From NCBI RefSeq assembly GCF_014217805.1, contig NZ_CP055156.1, positions 5,834,585-5,898,584 on the forward strand: 64,000 nt of DNA, in the 5' to 3' direction. The position numbers and the translations under genes are program-made. This stretch comes from Adhaeribacter swui. Its GTDB lineage: Bacteria; Bacteroidota; Bacteroidia; Cytophagales; Hymenobacteraceae. Positions 11,904-17,181 of the stretch are shown in pieces. How positions within the stretch are numbered: the first letter of the stretch is position 1; the number at the start of each line of letters is the position of its first letter. The notes beneath the pieces were generated by a model, which was not told the DNA's origin, did not search any database, and was given only the letters and a program-made list of their open reading frames with translations.

Positions 11904-14846
11904 TTAGCCGTACCGGGGATCTTTCTGGAAAGGGAGTTTGGCCATTTTTTCTACTTCCATGCTCGGGAAACCAAATTCTTCGACAATTTTGCCGTACAGC
12001 AGATAAATACCGTTGCCTTTAAACGGCCAGTGCTTGAGTGATTGCGGAAAGTGGACGGTATCGAAAAAATCGCCGCTGGCGTCCAGGAAAGTACCAAACT
12101 GCATCACTTCGCCTTTGATGGTGCGCACGTATTTGGTCGTCACTAAAACGCCCATCATGCGCACTTTCTGATTCAGGTGCAACAGCATGTTTTTGGTTTT
12201 TACATCGCCCCGATGTGGGGTTTGCAGCAAATCAAAATAAGTGCAGGTAACCGGGAAGCCCAGTAATTCCATTTCGTCGTAAGCGTCCTCAATGCGCGTG
12301 TGGCACAGGGTGGGCAGCGTAAACTGCCGGGCGGGTTCCCGGAATAATACATTTGCCGAGGGGTTCGTTACTTTATGCCCCAGTACCAGATGCGCTTCCC
12401 AGAGTAATTTTTTTTTATCCTGACCGGTAAACCGGAGTGCCTGCACCCGGATTAAAATTAACAATTGTTCCAGGGTAATTTGGGTGCGGGTAACAAAGTC
12501 TTCCAGGCTGGTATAAAGACCATTCTGCTCCCGTTCGGCCATAATGGTACTGGCTACTTTTTGCTCTAAATTCTGGATGTGAATAAAGCCCAGGTAAATA
12601 TCCTGCCCGTAAATGGTGGTGGTTACGTTACTGCGGTTGCAACAAGGCAAATGCATGGCGGCCCCAGCTTTTTGCGCTTGCTGCACGTACACCCAGGTTT
12701 TGTAAAAGCCGCCGAAGTTGTTGATTACCGCCACCATAAACTCCAGCGGGTAGTAGGTTTTTAAAAATAAGCTCTGGTAGCTTTCCACGGCGAACGAGGC
12801 CGAGTGCGCTTTGGAAAAAGAATAGCCGGCAAATGATTCTACCTGTCGCCAGACTTCCTTGATTAAGGCTTCGGGGTGGCCTTTGGCGCGGCAACTATCA
12901 TGAAATTTATTTACCAGTTTTTCAAATTCTTTCTTCGACCGGAACTTCCCGCTCATGGCCCGGCGCAACACATCGGCGTCCGATAAATCCAGACCGGCAA
13001 AATGGTGACAAATTTTAATCACGTCTTCTTGGTACACCATTACCCCATAAGTTTCTTTCAGTTGTTCTTCCATCACCGGGTGCAGGTACTGAATTTTATC
13101 TGGCTCGTGAAACCGCTGGATGTAGGCCCGCATCATGCCCGATTGCGCCACGCCTGGCCGGATAATGGAGCTGGCGGCTACCAGGGACAAATAATTATCG
13201 CAATGCAATTTTTTGAGTAAACCCCTCATAGCTGGGCTTTCGATGTAAAAGCAGCCAATGGTATCGCCGGATTTTAATTGTTGGCGGACCTTTTCATCGG
13301 TTTTAAACCGGGCAATATCGTGGGTATCGATGGTGATTTTTTGATTTTGCTGTACCAGGTTTTTGCATTCTTTAATGTGGCCAATACCGCGTTGACTCAG
13401 AATATCCAGCTTCTCGAAACCAATGCTTTCGGCAGTGTACATGTCCCACTGGCTGGTCGGGAAACCTTTGGGGGGCAAATCCAACGCGGTGTAGTTGGTA
13501 ATGGGAACTTCCGAAATAAGTACCCCGCCGGCATGGATGGAACGGAGATTCGGAAAATCCGAGAGCAAGCGACCGTACTGCAGAATTTTTTTGGTAATAT
13601 GGTCGGAGTTAGCGGCTGTGTGCGGGTTTTCGACCAGCGCATCTAATTCGGTTTTGGGTAAGCCGTATACTTTGCCCAGCTCGCGCAGAATAGAGTTATG
13701 CTGAAACGTACTCATGGCGCCCAGCAAGGCAGTGTAGCCGCGGCCATACCGTTTAAAAATATAATCCAGCACTTCGTCGCGTTCGTTCCAACTAAAATCA
13801 ATGTCAAAATCCGGCGGGCTCGTGCGCTTGGGATTTAAAAAACGCTCGAAATACAAGTCCAGCTCAATCGGGTCCACATCGGTTAAACCCAGACAATAAG
13901 CCACCACGCTATTGGCTCCACTCCCCCGCCCGATGTGATAATAGTTACGCTTGCGGGCATAAGTAACTACGTCTTCGGTAATCAGGAAATACGCGGCAAA
14001 ACCTAATTTATCGATGATGCCCAGCTCATGCTCTACGCGTCGTTTAGCTTCCTTGTTCGATGCGGTATACCTTTTTTGTAATCCATCCCGGGCTAATTTT
14101 TCCAGCAGCAATTTATCGTCGTAAGCGGTGTTGGTAAAATGGCGTTTGTTCTTGCGGCTCTCAAAATCGAACGTAAAAGTGGCTTGCTGCACTAATTTTT
14201 CGGTGTTCCGGATAAGTTCGGGAAAACGCTGGTATTGCGTCAGCAGCTTGGTGCAAGCATAAAAGCAAGCATCCTGGGCCACGCCATGTTCCGGCCTTAA
14301 CTGACTCAGCAAAATATTATTATCTACAGCCCGCAGATGCTGGTGCAGGTGGTAGCCTTCCTCGTTTTGGCAGGTGAATAGCGGCTGCATGAGTAGTTTA
14401 GCGCCTTGCTGTCGTAAATCCGAGAATACTAATTTATTTAAATCCTGGGGGCTAACGCCGATAAATTCATGCTCCTGGAGTTGCCTGTTTTTACCGGCGG
14501 CAAACGGGTAAATAATAATAGCCTGCGTAAAAGCTGGGGGCGCAGCGGGCAAAGGCTGATGCCGCAGCAAGTGGTAAGTTAAAAAACTGTTAAGTTCCTC
14601 AAAGCCTTTTTGGTTTAAAGCCAGGCCGGTATACAGCAACTGGTTATCGCGCCGAAACTCCATACCCACCAGCGGCTGAATGTTTTGCGCCAGGCAAGCT
14701 TTAATAAAAGGAAATACACCCGAAGTGTTGTTAATATCGGTTAAGGCTAAAGCTTTATACCCCTGAGCCCGGGCTTCGGCGGCTAAGTCTTCTACCGACA
14801 GGGTGCCGTAGCGCAAACTATAATACGAATGGACAAATGCCAGCAT
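11904..14846 (-). CDS. dnaE2: DNA polymerase III alpha-type error-prone polymerase (DnaE2-like)
   Basis: A C-family replicative-type polymerase of 980 residues, shorter than housekeeping DnaE (about 1160 or more) and close to the DnaE2/ImuC group. In order: PHP domain (residues 1-about 70 and onward; FVHSYYSLRYGTLS, ALALTDINNTSG), palm with HIGRGSGANSVVAYCLG and catalytic PPDFDIDFSWNERDEVLDY (Asp348/Asp350), fingers (GAMSTFQHNSILRELG, HAGGVLIS, YQEDVIKICHHFAGL, GYSFSKAHSASFAVESYQ) and a C-terminal OB domain (KVRMMGVLVTTKYVRTIKGE). The PHP signature TDHxN is TDINN here, so the first domain has probably lost its metal site. The gene starts 10 bases after the DinB gene and shares its transcript. 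By analogy with DnaE2, it would extend from damaged templates during translesion synthesis. Confidence 0.9.
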   Translation of the reverse strand: MLAFVHSYYSLRYGTLSVEDLAAEARAQGYKALALTDINNTSGVFPFIKACLAQNIQPLVGMEFRRDNQLLYTGLALNQKGFEELNSFLTYHLLRHQPLPAAPPAFTQAIIIYPFAAGKNRQLQEHEFIGVSPQDLNKLVFSDLRQQGAKLLMQPLFTCQNEEGYHLHQHLRAVDNNILLSQLRPEHGVAQDACFYACTKLLTQYQRFPELIRNTEKLVQQATFTFDFESRKNKRHFTNTAYDDKLLLEKLARDGLQKRYTASNKEAKRRVEHELGIIDKLGFAAYFLITEDVVTYARKRNYYHIGRGSGANSVVAYCLGLTDVDPIELDLYFERFLNPKRTSPPDFDIDFSWNERDEVLDYIFKRYGRGYTALLGAMSTFQHNSILRELGKVYGLPKTELDALVENPHTAANSDHITKKILQYGRLLSDFPNLRSIHAGGVLISEVPITNYTALDLPPKGFPTSQWDMYTAESIGFEKLDILSQRGIGHIKECKNLVQQNQKITIDTHDIARFKTDEKVRQQLKSGDTIGCFYIESPAMRGLLKKLHCDNYLSLVAASSIIRPGVAQSGMMRAYIQRFHEPDKIQYLHPVMEEQLKETYGVMVYQEDVIKICHHFAGLDLSDADVLRRAMSGKFRSKKEFEKLVNKFHDSCRAKGHPEALIKEVWRQVESFAGYSFSKAHSASFAVESYQSLFLKTYYPLEFMVAVINNFGGFYKTWVYVQQAQKAGAAMHLPCCNRSNVTTTIYGQDIYLGFIHIQNLEQKVASTIMAEREQNGLYTSLEDFVTRTQITLEQLLILIRVQALRFTGQDKKKLLWEAHLVLGHKVTNPSANVLFREPARQFTLPTLCHTRIEDAYDEMELLGFPVTCTYFDLLQTPHRGDVKTKNMLLHLNQKVRMMGVLVTTKYVRTIKGEVMQFGTFLDASGDFFDTVHFPQSLKHWPFKGNGIYLLYGKIVEEFGFPSMEVEKMAKLPFQKDPRYG

Positions 14847-14856
14847 ACGTTGTTTT

Positions 14857-16023
14857 TTATCTTAAACCTGATTTTAACCCTACCGCCCGCTGCACCGCCG
14901 TGTCGCCGTAACGTACCCGGATTTTATCCATGGCCTGGTAGAGGTTCGCCATTTCGGCGGTATCTTCAAATAAATCAATCTGCTGAAAACCCTGCACCAA
15001 ATTGCTCAACCGCACGCCCAGCAGCCGGATAAGCAAGCGCCGGTTATATAATTTTTGAAAAAGTTCTTTCGCTTTGCGGATTAAAACGTGGTCGGCGGCA
15101 TTGTACGGAATGGTGAGTTGCTGGGTGTGCGTATCGAAGTTGGCGTACCTGATTTTTACCGTAATGCAACCTGCCAGCTTGCCTTGTTTGCGTAGTTCAA
15201 AGGCCAAACCTTCGGTCATGGAAACGAGCAAATTGTTGAGTTTACCAATATCGGTGGTGTCGGTACTGAAGGTTTGCTCCGTGCTGATGGACTTTTGCTC
15301 GGAGTAAGGAACCACGGGAGCCCCGTCGATGCCGTTGGCTTTTTCCCAGATGCTCACGCCTTCTTTGCCCAGTACTTTCTGCATCATTTCTACCGGAATC
15401 ATGGTGAGCACCTCAATGGTGGGAATGCCCATGTTGCGCAAAAGCTGATAATTTTTTTGCCCCACGCCCGGTATTTTTTTAATGGAAAGCGGCGCCAGAA
15501 AAGGCTTTACTTCCGCGGAGCGTACCTGCATTTTACCGTTGGGTTTCGCCTGCCCCGTCGCAATTTTAGATACCGTTTTGTTGATGGATAAGCCAAAAGA
15601 AATGGGCAAGCCGGTTTCCTTGATGATTAGATTCCGGAGCTCGTTGGTCCACTGCCAGGTACCGTGAAACCGGTCCATGCCGCTCACGTCCAGGTAATGC
15701 TCGTCGATGGATGATTTTTCGTAAACTGGCGCCTTCGCCGCAATTACCTGGGTAACGTCCGTAGAATACTTACTGTAAGCTTCCATGTCGCCGCGCAGTA
15801 CAATGGCTTCCTGGCAAAGCTGCCGGGCCATTTTCATGGGCATGCCGGCGTGTACCCCAAAATACCGCGTTTCGTAACTGCAACTAGCCACCACCCCCCG
15901 GTCCGACATTCCTCCCACAATCACGGGTTTGCCCATTAGCTGGCTGTTGCGCAGCCGCTCCACCGATACAAAAAAGGTGTCCAGATCAAAATGGGCAATG
16001 GTTCGCTGGTCGTTGAGTAGCAT
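14857..16023 (-). CDS. dinB: Y-family translesion DNA polymerase (DinB/Pol IV type)
   Basis: A 388-residue Y-family polymerase. The catalytic carboxylates are present: HFDLDTFF (Asp13, with Phe18 at the usual steric-gate position) and SSIDEHYLD (Asp107/Glu108). Later come the helix-hairpin-helix IKKIPGVGQKNYQLL and a little-finger domain (ISTEQTFSTD ... ITVKIRYANFD). Near the C-terminus QIDLF (348-352) matches the beta-clamp-binding consensus QLxLF. An intact active site separates it from ImuB, the catalytically dead relative usually paired with DnaE2. It is first in an operon with the DnaE2-like gene (10-base gap) and is divergent from an XRE regulator across a 151-base region with palindromes. 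Role: lesion bypass, with damage-linked mutagenesis inferred. Confidence 0.93.
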   Translation of the reverse strand: MLLNDQRTIAHFDLDTFFVSVERLRNSQLMGKPVIVGGMSDRGVVASCSYETRYFGVHAGMPMKMARQLCQEAIVLRGDMEAYSKYSTDVTQVIAAKAPVYEKSSIDEHYLDVSGMDRFHGTWQWTNELRNLIIKETGLPISFGLSINKTVSKIATGQAKPNGKMQVRSAEVKPFLAPLSIKKIPGVGQKNYQLLRNMGIPTIEVLTMIPVEMMQKVLGKEGVSIWEKANGIDGAPVVPYSEQKSISTEQTFSTDTTDIGKLNNLLVSMTEGLAFELRKQGKLAGCITVKIRYANFDTHTQQLTIPYNAADHVLIRKAKELFQKLYNRRLLIRLLGVRLSNLVQGFQQIDLFEDTAEMANLYQAMDKIRVRYGDTAVQRAVGLKSGLR

Positions 16024-16058: not shown

Positions 16059-16111
16059 TTTGGTAAAATGATTAGTTTTTAAGCAAATATTTTTGGTAAA
16101 ATGTAACCAAA
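16059..16111. promoter_or_regulatory. Candidate XRE operator: paired TTTGGTAAAATG boxes
   Basis: TTTGGTAAAATG occurs twice in direct orientation (16059-16070 and 16092-16103), 33 bases apart (about three helix turns). The second copy is also the left half of an inverted pair, TTTGGT-N8-ACCAAA (16092-16111). A -7-like TATTTTTG (16088-16095, plus strand) overlaps the second copy and could serve the XRE gene. It lies between the divergent dinB and XRE genes. Confidence 0.5.
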
Positions 16112-16141: not shown

Positions 16142-16165
16142 TATTTTAGCATTTATACTAAAATA
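16142..16165. promoter_or_regulatory. Candidate second operator palindrome upstream of the XRE gene
   Basis: TATTTTAG and CTAAAATA form a perfect 8+8 palindrome separated by 8 bases. This is the same N8 spacing as the TTTGGT/ACCAAA pair 30 bases away, as expected if one dimer binds both. It ends 9 bases before the ATG of the XRE gene, so binding there would block transcription or translation initiation. Confidence 0.45.
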
Positions 16166-16174
16166 CCTAGGAAC

Positions 16175-16480
16175 ATGTTTCTACCCTCGAACTTAAAATG
16201 GTTACGACAGTTGAAAAAAAAGACGCAGGAAGACGTAGCGTTTGCCTTAAACATCAAACGCTCGACGTACAGCGGTTACGAGAATGGCGTGGGCGAACCG
16301 AGCCTGGATAAGCTAATCCTGTTGGCTAATTATTTTAAAATTACCCTGGATGGGTTAGTAGCCCAGGATTTAAGAGAAATAGCTATTAGCCAGCTCCCCC
16401 GCACCGACGGCACCCTGGAAAATCCGGCCTGGAAAAACGCCGTACCATTTCCCTCCATGCGTGTGCACCGGGAAGAGTAA
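16175..16480 (+). CDS. XRE-family HTH transcriptional regulator
   Basis: A 101-residue DNA-binding protein. Residues about 6-60 are a Cro/CI-type helix-turn-helix (LKWLRQLKKKTQEDVAFAL ... RSTYSGYENGVGEPSLDKL). The roughly 40-residue tail has no recognisable peptidase or ligand domain, so it is not LexA and cannot self-cleave like LexA. It is divergent from the dinB-dnaE operon and convergent with the SRAP gene, whose stop lies 6 bases beyond its own. Palindromes in the shared upstream region suggest that it represses itself and/or the polymerase operon. What would relieve repression after damage is not visible. Confidence 0.88.
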   Translation: MFLPSNLKWLRQLKKKTQEDVAFALNIKRSTYSGYENGVGEPSLDKLILLANYFKITLDGLVAQDLREIAISQLPRTDGTLENPAWKNAVPFPSMRVHREE

Positions 16481-16485
16481 AATTT

Positions 16486-17181
16486 TTAAAAAAGATTCAA
16501 TTGCTCGGGTAAAGCAGGCCAGGTATACGGCTCCAGAATATCGGGCTCGTTATAACCCGGCGTGTTTATTTTTTTAGAAATGGTATAAGCCGTCATTTGG
16601 TCGGCGGGAAAAGCTTTAATCTGGTCCAGGTAATTCTGGCTCTTGGAATAGTATTGCAGCCAGACCATTTCTTCGCCGGGCGGCAAAATAGCGGGCATAC
16701 GGTCATGCAAGGATCTTATGAGTTCATTAGGGTCCAGCGTAATCACGCTGAAGAAAGTAGCTTCCTGCCCGGTCTTCGAGTTTATTTTCTTATCCCATAA
16801 ACCCGCCATGGCAAATACATCCTTATCTTTTAACTCCAATCGGTACGGAATTTTAAAATTTTTCTGCACCGTTTGCCATTCGTAAAAGCCATCAACCAGA
16901 ATCAGACAGGTTTGCCCTTTTTGCAACAATTGCGTGTAATAGCTCCAAAGCAGGAGCTTATCCTGCCGGGAGTTACTGAGCAAATCGTTTTTGCCATTAA
17001 TCACCATCGGAATGCCCCAGGCTAAAGATTGCAGCTTGTCCGGTTGTTCACTGGTAATAACGGGTAAGTTTTGGGAAGGCACCGCATTGTAAACCGGCTC
17101 CAGATCAGCCTCGTTGATATAAGGCGCAAACCGATGTTCTACCGGTACTCTTTTCTTGGTTTGAGAAGCCCGTCCGCACAT
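16486..17181 (-). CDS. SRAP-domain protein (YedK/HMCES type), abasic-site shield
   Basis: A 231-residue SOS-response-associated peptidase family protein. Family knowledge: Cys2 forms a thiazolidine crosslink with abasic sites in single-stranded DNA. The active-site set is visible: MCGR with Cys2, YNAVPSQ (Asn32), SNSRQD (70-72, matching the family NARxE segment), DGFYEW with Glu101, and SLHDRMPAIL with His159. The last five residues are QLNLF (227-231), a match to the bacterial beta-clamp-binding consensus; human HMCES carries a C-terminal PCNA-binding motif in the same place. It is convergent with the XRE gene and close to dinB-dnaE, a neighbourhood known for this family. Confidence 0.93.
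   Translation of the reverse strand: MCGRASQTKKRVPVEHRFAPYINEADLEPVYNAVPSQNLPVITSEQPDKLQSLAWGIPMVINGKNDLLSNSRQDKLLLWSYYTQLLQKGQTCLILVDGFYEWQTVQKNFKIPYRLELKDKDVFAMAGLWDKKINSKTGQEATFFSVITLDPNELIRSLHDRMPAILPPGEEMVWLQYYSKSQNYLDQIKAFPADQMTAYTISKKINTPGYNEPDILEPYTWPALPEQLNLF

Follow-up and report, generated by a model that had tools for sequence, protein, structure and literature searches.

A C-terminal QLNLF motif, predicted to bind the beta-clamp, in an SRAP protein of Adhaeribacter swui and its recurrence among SRAP proteins

The window analyzed here, a stretch of 64,000 nucleotides of the A. swui genome, carries a gene for an SRAP (SOS response-associated peptidase) protein close to a small helix-turn-helix (HTH) gene and two polymerase genes (Table 1). 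The HTH gene lies between dinB, from which it diverges, and the SRAP gene, with which it converges. Directly downstream of dinB is a second polymerase gene, which we call DnaE2 only on account of its size, its pairing with DinB, and the description in PMC12926913. Adjacent Y-family and DnaE2-type polymerases are also a feature of the DnaE2B-PolY-RecA module of Bacteroidetes (PMC12926913), to which we liken the window by this adjacency and not by an assignment of its DnaE2 to the DnaE2B group. As described in the available sections of that paper, however, SRAP is not listed among the components of the module, and the window SRAP stands beyond the convergent HTH gene. The same sections report that UmuC-like polymerases are specifically linked with SRAP-related proteins; they treat the clamp motifs of polymerases, and their two mentions of SRAP come without a clamp motif. 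Enrichment of SRAP genes near polB2 is described in PMC11791011.

Table 1. Coordinates of the SRAP gene, its neighbors, and the predicted clamp motifs in the window
Feature	Position	Strand	Description
SRAP gene (SOS response-associated peptidase / YedK-HMCES family)	16486..17181	-	231 aa; Pfam PF02586, E 3.9e-45
QLNLF, predicted beta-clamp-binding motif	16489..16503	-	SRAP residues 227-231, extreme C terminus
DinB / Y-family polymerase gene	14857..16023	-	388 aa; Pfam IMS, IMS_C
QIDLF, DinB's own clamp-type motif, internal	14968..14982	-	DinB residues 348-352
DnaE2-type error-prone polymerase gene	11904..14846	-	980 aa; Pfam PHP, DNA_pol3_alpha, finger, HHH_6
Small XRE-type helix-turn-helix gene	16175..16480	+	101 aa; Pfam HTH_3

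Between dinB and the HTH gene we noted an inverted repeat, TATTTTAG-N8-CTAAAATA (16142-16165), and two exact copies of TTTGGTAAAATG located 33 bases apart (16059-16070 and 16092-16103); in the window, TTTGGTAAAATG has seven matches with at most one mismatch, compared to 1.4 expected. The inverted repeat and the TTTGGTAAAATG copies are possible operators of the HTH regulator. As operators common to the HTH gene and the SRAP gene the repeats were rejected, the palindrome having matched only itself within the window.

The translated SRAP open reading frame (ORF) ends in ...PALPEQLNLF, with the stop codon at 16486-16488. An earlier note on this DNA had placed QLNLF at the last five residues of the SRAP protein and a QIDLF motif in the neighboring DinB, and both are found where it put them; only the span that it quoted for QLNLF, 16486-16500, is off by one codon (3 bases). 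The Pfam SRAP match covers residues 1-206 (154.4 bits; cutoff, 27.1), leaving QLNLF outside the matched domain. In an alignment of 405 SRAPs, C2, N70, E101, and H159 of the window protein fall into the conserved catalytic columns. N70, E101, and H159 are conserved in 404, 403, and 403 of the 405 sequences, respectively, and the 405/405 of Cys2 is uninformative, being the entry condition for this alignment. The hallmark residues of SRAPs given in the available part of PMC3765255 are Cys2, a central Asn and Glu, and a C-terminal His. Since the active-site residues are present, the abasic-site chemistry of the window SRAP should be intact. An AlphaFold2 model of the protein has a pLDDT of 93.2, falling to a mean of 81 over residues 221-230 and to 63 at the last residue, 231. 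The value of 81 and a short helix modeled at residues 225-228 leave room for a tail that is ordered or packed in part.

The best PDB matches of this model in Foldseek were the SRAP domain of HMCES, BT_1218, and YedK. Human HMCES shares the fold of the window SRAP (E = 7e-19 to 6oov) and also has a proposed C-terminal clamp motif, either a PIP box or an APIM (PMC8053108, available sections). In line with the eukaryotic parallel drawn in the earlier note, this paper mentions a suggestion that HMCES moves along with forks while attached to PCNA through a C-terminal PIP box; it argues that the motif fits an APIM better and notes an RPA2-binding-like motif overlapping it. Moreover, the HMCES motif is PCNA directed and PIP/APIM-like, whereas that of the window SRAP is of the bacterial beta-clamp type: the PIP-box consensus given in PMC8053108, Qxx[aliphatic]xx[aromatic][aromatic], does not fit a protein that stops at QLNLF. 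E. coli YedK has the SRAP fold in common with the window protein but ends in ...GAELIQPV, without a clamp motif.

By pentapeptide comparison, QLNLF fits the clamp consensus, published as QL[S/D]LF or QxxLF (PMC12309361), in its QxxLF form. According to the available part of PMC3716654, the identical pentapeptide occurs in E. coli UmuC (Pol V) as 357-QLNLF-361, where it was seen bound to the clamp; it is internal in UmuC and C-terminal in the window SRAP, and the two proteins are unrelated. A near-identical motif, QLSLF, lies at the very C terminus of B. subtilis PolC and has measured DnaN binding (PMC12309361, available part), although PolC is a replicative polymerase and the window SRAP belongs to a repair-shield family. 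The words “clamp” and “PCNA” do not occur in the text of PMC3765255, and among the matches listed in the openly licensed full-text literature we found no report that a bacterial or archaeal SRAP carries a clamp motif.

One DnaN match was present in the A. swui genome. At 25 positions taken to represent the peptide-groove region, this protein is identical to E. coli DnaN in 15 (R152, V170, T172, D173, G174, H175, R176, L177, P242, V247, N320, V361, M362, P363, and L366) and differs in 10. The differences include L155M, R246N, S346A, and V360L, with the alignment gapped around 344-346. In E. coli, R246 of the clamp is the residue touched by Phe-361 of UmuC (PMC3716654, available part).

The recurrence of the motif was examined across the family. 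A set of 577 loci yielded 517 complete SRAPs, of which 478 were unique, falling into 261 clusters at 70% identity. The pattern was Qxx[LMI]F, its F being the final or penultimate residue of the protein; the background consisted of 2,346 neighboring non-SRAP ORFs of at least 150 aa from which HMM-matching ORFs had been removed. The QxxLF ending was found in 39/261 SRAP clusters and in 5/2,346 background ORFs, placing its odds in SRAPs at about 80 times those in the neighboring ORFs; the corresponding Fisher value, 5e-35, is overstated, since related sequences are not independent. A terminal [LMI]F in the same two positions was found in 70/261 clusters compared to 44/2,346 background ORFs. Given such a terminal LF, a Q stands three residues before the L in 39 of the 70 SRAP clusters (5/44 in the background), and the residue in the middle is one of S, T, D, and N in 53 of the 70 (14/44 in the background). 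In clamp motifs, the middle residue is most often S and then D (PMC3716654, available part); at the level of sequence, both the Q and the middle-residue preferences of LF-ended SRAPs are those of clamp motifs. This leaves 31 of the 70 LF-ended clusters without the Q, and for these clamp binding is a less satisfactory explanation.

With a looser pattern, 39 matches were observed among 220 unique SRAPs, compared to 0.43 on average and never more than 4 when the last 25 residues were shuffled 1,000 times. The excess is tied to the extreme end of the protein: [LM]F occupies the last two positions in 68/220 SRAPs versus 22/1,142 background ORFs, and two residues further in the excess is small (5/220 versus 5/1,142), where this background, like the other earlier ones, still contained some SRAPs with missed starts, four of which were recognized; the counts against the 2,346 HMM-filtered ORFs are to be preferred. 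The stretch after the RMP motif has a median of 67 residues in QxxLF SRAPs (n = 38) and of 58 residues in SRAPs that lack both QxxLF and LF (n = 164). Because of this longer stretch, the predicted clamp-type motif appears to be situated on an added C-terminal arm.

The ending is a minority trait, absent from 222/261 clusters (85%) and also from the tails of both E. coli YedK and SPbeta YoqW. By group, with each cluster assigned to the group of its first member, it was found in 10/99 clusters of Bacteroidota, 14/53 of named genome contigs, 8/27 of Alphaproteobacteria, 6/23 of Thermoplasmatota, and 1/36 of viral contigs, and in none of those of Myxococcota (0/7), Gemmatimonadota (0/14), haloarchaea (0/1), and others (0/1). 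Relatives of the window protein are overrepresented in the Bacteroidota and named-contig sets; in a phylum-wide sample of Bacteroidota, 3/84 unique SRAPs had QxxLF under the looser pattern and 28/84 had LF-like ends. We judged the alphaproteobacterial sample to be the fairest, as it spans 58 genomes across the class, 31 of them with an SRAP; 30 of 37 places were read, giving 27 further unique complete proteins. Counted as unique proteins, 2/21 SRAPs in the Gemmatimonadota sample and 0/29 in the Myxococcota sample carry QxxLF, and the named contigs include a Myxococcales case ending in KQGRLF and a Gemmatimonadota case ending in DQLGLF (L124 and L122, respectively). Phages as the source of the motif were considered and rejected, with QxxLF in only 5/104 unique viral-contig SRAPs, namely, Empedobacter-like ones and one other.

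In a FastTree phylogeny for which the last eight residues had been removed, the 39 QxxLF tips fall into 28 separate all-QxxLF clades and require at least 25 changes, although the tree is rough (116/258 inner branches are weak) and does not distinguish gain from loss of the motif. Shuffling the labels 200 times gave a mean of 36.7 changes and a minimum of 30. The window SRAP falls into a supported clade of three sequences, all of which carry the motif. Three QxxLF-bearing SRAPs from Saprospiraceae group with this clade, but without starred support.

The two nearest orthologues found keep the motif. The SRAP from a genome of the same genus (G024, locus L042) is 65% identical and ends in PKQLSLF; it keeps the motif despite a deletion of three residues in the linker immediately preceding it, and a locus of 13 kb around it showed no counterpart of the DinB, DnaE2, or HTH genes of the window. 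The other, from Adhaeribacter terrigena, is 45% identical and ends in PEQLSMF (L075, the same stretch as L045); there, the gene order is DnaE2-DinB-HTH-SRAP, with a relative of the window's HTH protein (53% over 74 aa) at the same place. Three positions of the motif show synonymous codon differences among the orthologues.

The earlier note had also supposed that the SRAP protein might share the clamp with the adjacent DinB. Among the 233 clusters (of 261) whose flanks reached 1.2 kb or more on both sides, QxxLF was present in 4/35 with a Y-polymerase or DnaE2 within 1.4 kb and in 33/198 without (p = 0.62). A wider search for a Y-polymerase within 3.5 kb, with a shorter flank where the sequence ended sooner, gave 2/33 compared to 24/135 (p = 0.11), and a tie of the motif to these polymerases was rejected at both distances. 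The A. swui genome itself provides a further case against it, as a second SRAP on a 117-kb contig immediately precedes DinB and DnaE2 in the same orientation and ends in LKAIDCFPV, without the motif. Because linkage to DinB does not predict the motif, a special sharing of the clamp between SRAP and DinB is unsupported. The DinB and DnaE2 of this plasmid array (L033, G000:C2:32000-47000) are 81% and 72% identical to the window copies, respectively, and ORFs resembling IS transposases by eye lie near it. The order SRAP, DinB, DnaE2 recurs in five genomes of the same genus, with gaps of about 0.15 to 0.5 kb in G003, G029, and G009 and an SRAP-DinB gap of about 1.1 kb in G014 and G019. G003 also contains a second such array, in which the three genes are present only as fragments (L035:6787-8968).

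Across the A. swui genome, Q[LF]x[LF]F followed by TRR (a codon set that includes TGG, so that such a place need not be the end of a gene) occurs at 59 places, compared to 20 for the reversed pattern. The 30 of these that were checked, the SRAP site being among the other 29, yielded one doubtful ORF of 121 aa.

Archaea, which use PCNA as their sliding clamp, provided a matched comparison. All eight haloarchaeal plasmid SRAPs read, out of 59 matching records, terminate in QSGLGEF followed by two or three further residues, a match to the PIP-like pattern Qxx[LIM]xxF; being close relatives in a single cluster, they count as one event. The genome of Haloferax volcanii likewise contains an SRAP family match. 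Overall, the PIP-like pattern was found in 3/261 SRAP clusters and 13/2,346 background ORFs, and outside the haloarchaeal cluster it is not clearly commoner than in the background. Among Thermoplasmatota, 20/30 unique SRAPs have LF endings, nine of them QxxLF. FEN1-family matches were located in 13 of 14 genomes of this group, and the 11 with complete C termini are without exception PIP-like: four have QKNLFDF, three have QRRLDMF or QMRLDMF, and QTSLFSF, QRSLEDFI, QKSLEDFF, and QIRLDFF occur once each. In G554, G660, and G674, the SRAP ends in QKNLF and the FEN1 of the same genome in QKNLFDF, a correspondence that could reflect misbinning if these are metagenome bins, as the two named Thermoplasmatota records are. 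Judged by their sequences, the archaeal SRAP tails look PCNA directed. Two Thermoplasmatota genomes, G561 (L473) and G623 (L475), have four and three SRAP-family matches, respectively, several of them side by side.

Taken together, we regard it as probable that the window SRAP, like YedK and HMCES, is an abasic-site crosslinker and that it has a C-terminal arm whose QLNLF docks in the groove of DnaN. In such a scheme, the last five residues of a short added arm would occupy the peptide groove, and the clamp would keep SRAP in place both at stalled forks and at primer-template junctions. Should an abasic site in the template strand then bring a polymerase to a halt, Cys2 could cap the lesion covalently before cutting or bypass. 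The motifs of DinB and SRAP in A. swui should be directed to the same DnaN groove, and DinB, through QIDLF, might compete with SRAP for the two grooves that a DnaN dimer offers, or share them with it. Binding to DnaN, recruitment to forks, and any interplay or competition with DinB are what we infer from these sequences.

Three alternatives were considered. The C-terminal hydrophobic pair might be a degradation signal or adaptor site through which an AAA+ protease pulls SRAP off after crosslinking, in which case the resemblance to clamp motifs would be superficial. Removal of crosslinked SRAP would presumably be required, and the LF-ended clusters without Q agree with a bare hydrophobic signal; such a signal, however, gives no reason to expect the Q in 39 or the S/T/D/N in 53 of the 70 LF-ended clusters, nor the PIP-box resemblance of archaeal tails, and we consider it quite unlikely. 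Alternatively, the tail might bind another partner, for instance, the neighboring DinB-DnaE2 or RecA, as a regulatory subunit, given the specific link between UmuC-like polymerases and SRAP-related proteins (PMC12926913, available sections) and the pairing of SRAP with DinB-DnaE2 in both the window and A. terrigena. Against this stand the frequency of QxxLF, no higher beside Y-polymerases or DnaE2 than elsewhere, the motifless SRAP in the tight array of A. swui, and the 65% identical orthologue that keeps the motif where none of these neighbors was found, which together make a partner of this kind very unlikely. Finally, short C termini vary, and a QxxLF ending could be functionless drift, a reading to which the rarity of the motif and the small size of the window's supported clade lend some weight. 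The enrichment over neighboring ORFs, the distribution over separate clades, and the retention of the motif despite changed codons and linker argue against this reading and render drift highly improbable.

Docking on the clamp by the window SRAP may be one case of something wider, and we give a little less than an even chance to the proposal that tethering to the clamp by a C-terminal hook is a general trait of SRAPs in all three domains, one that has been acquired or lost repeatedly, with the hook matched to the type of clamp present (QxxLF for DnaN and PIP-like forms for PCNA). If this was the case, the abasic-site shield would be a replisome component, and hookless E. coli YedK would be an untypical model; of the studied models, neither YedK nor YoqW has a tail motif. 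A clamp hook would offer bacterial SRAP a direct route to abasic sites in single-stranded DNA at forks and would predict which species have a fork-tethered SRAP. It would also mean that shielding and mutagenic bypass contend for a single clamp, here in a genome encoding DinB and DnaE2 as well.

Two ORFs near other SRAP genes were noted in passing. In a Haloplasmataceae bin, the ORF beside SRAP (L103:7675-8568, minus strand), by eye a radical-SAM protein resembling SplB, has a clamp-type ending, VKQLSLFD. In a Saprospiraceae bin, an ORF about 6 kb from the SRAP gene (L083:13726-14295, minus strand) ends in AQGSLF and resembles, by eye, a methylated-DNA cysteine methyltransferase (PCHRV).
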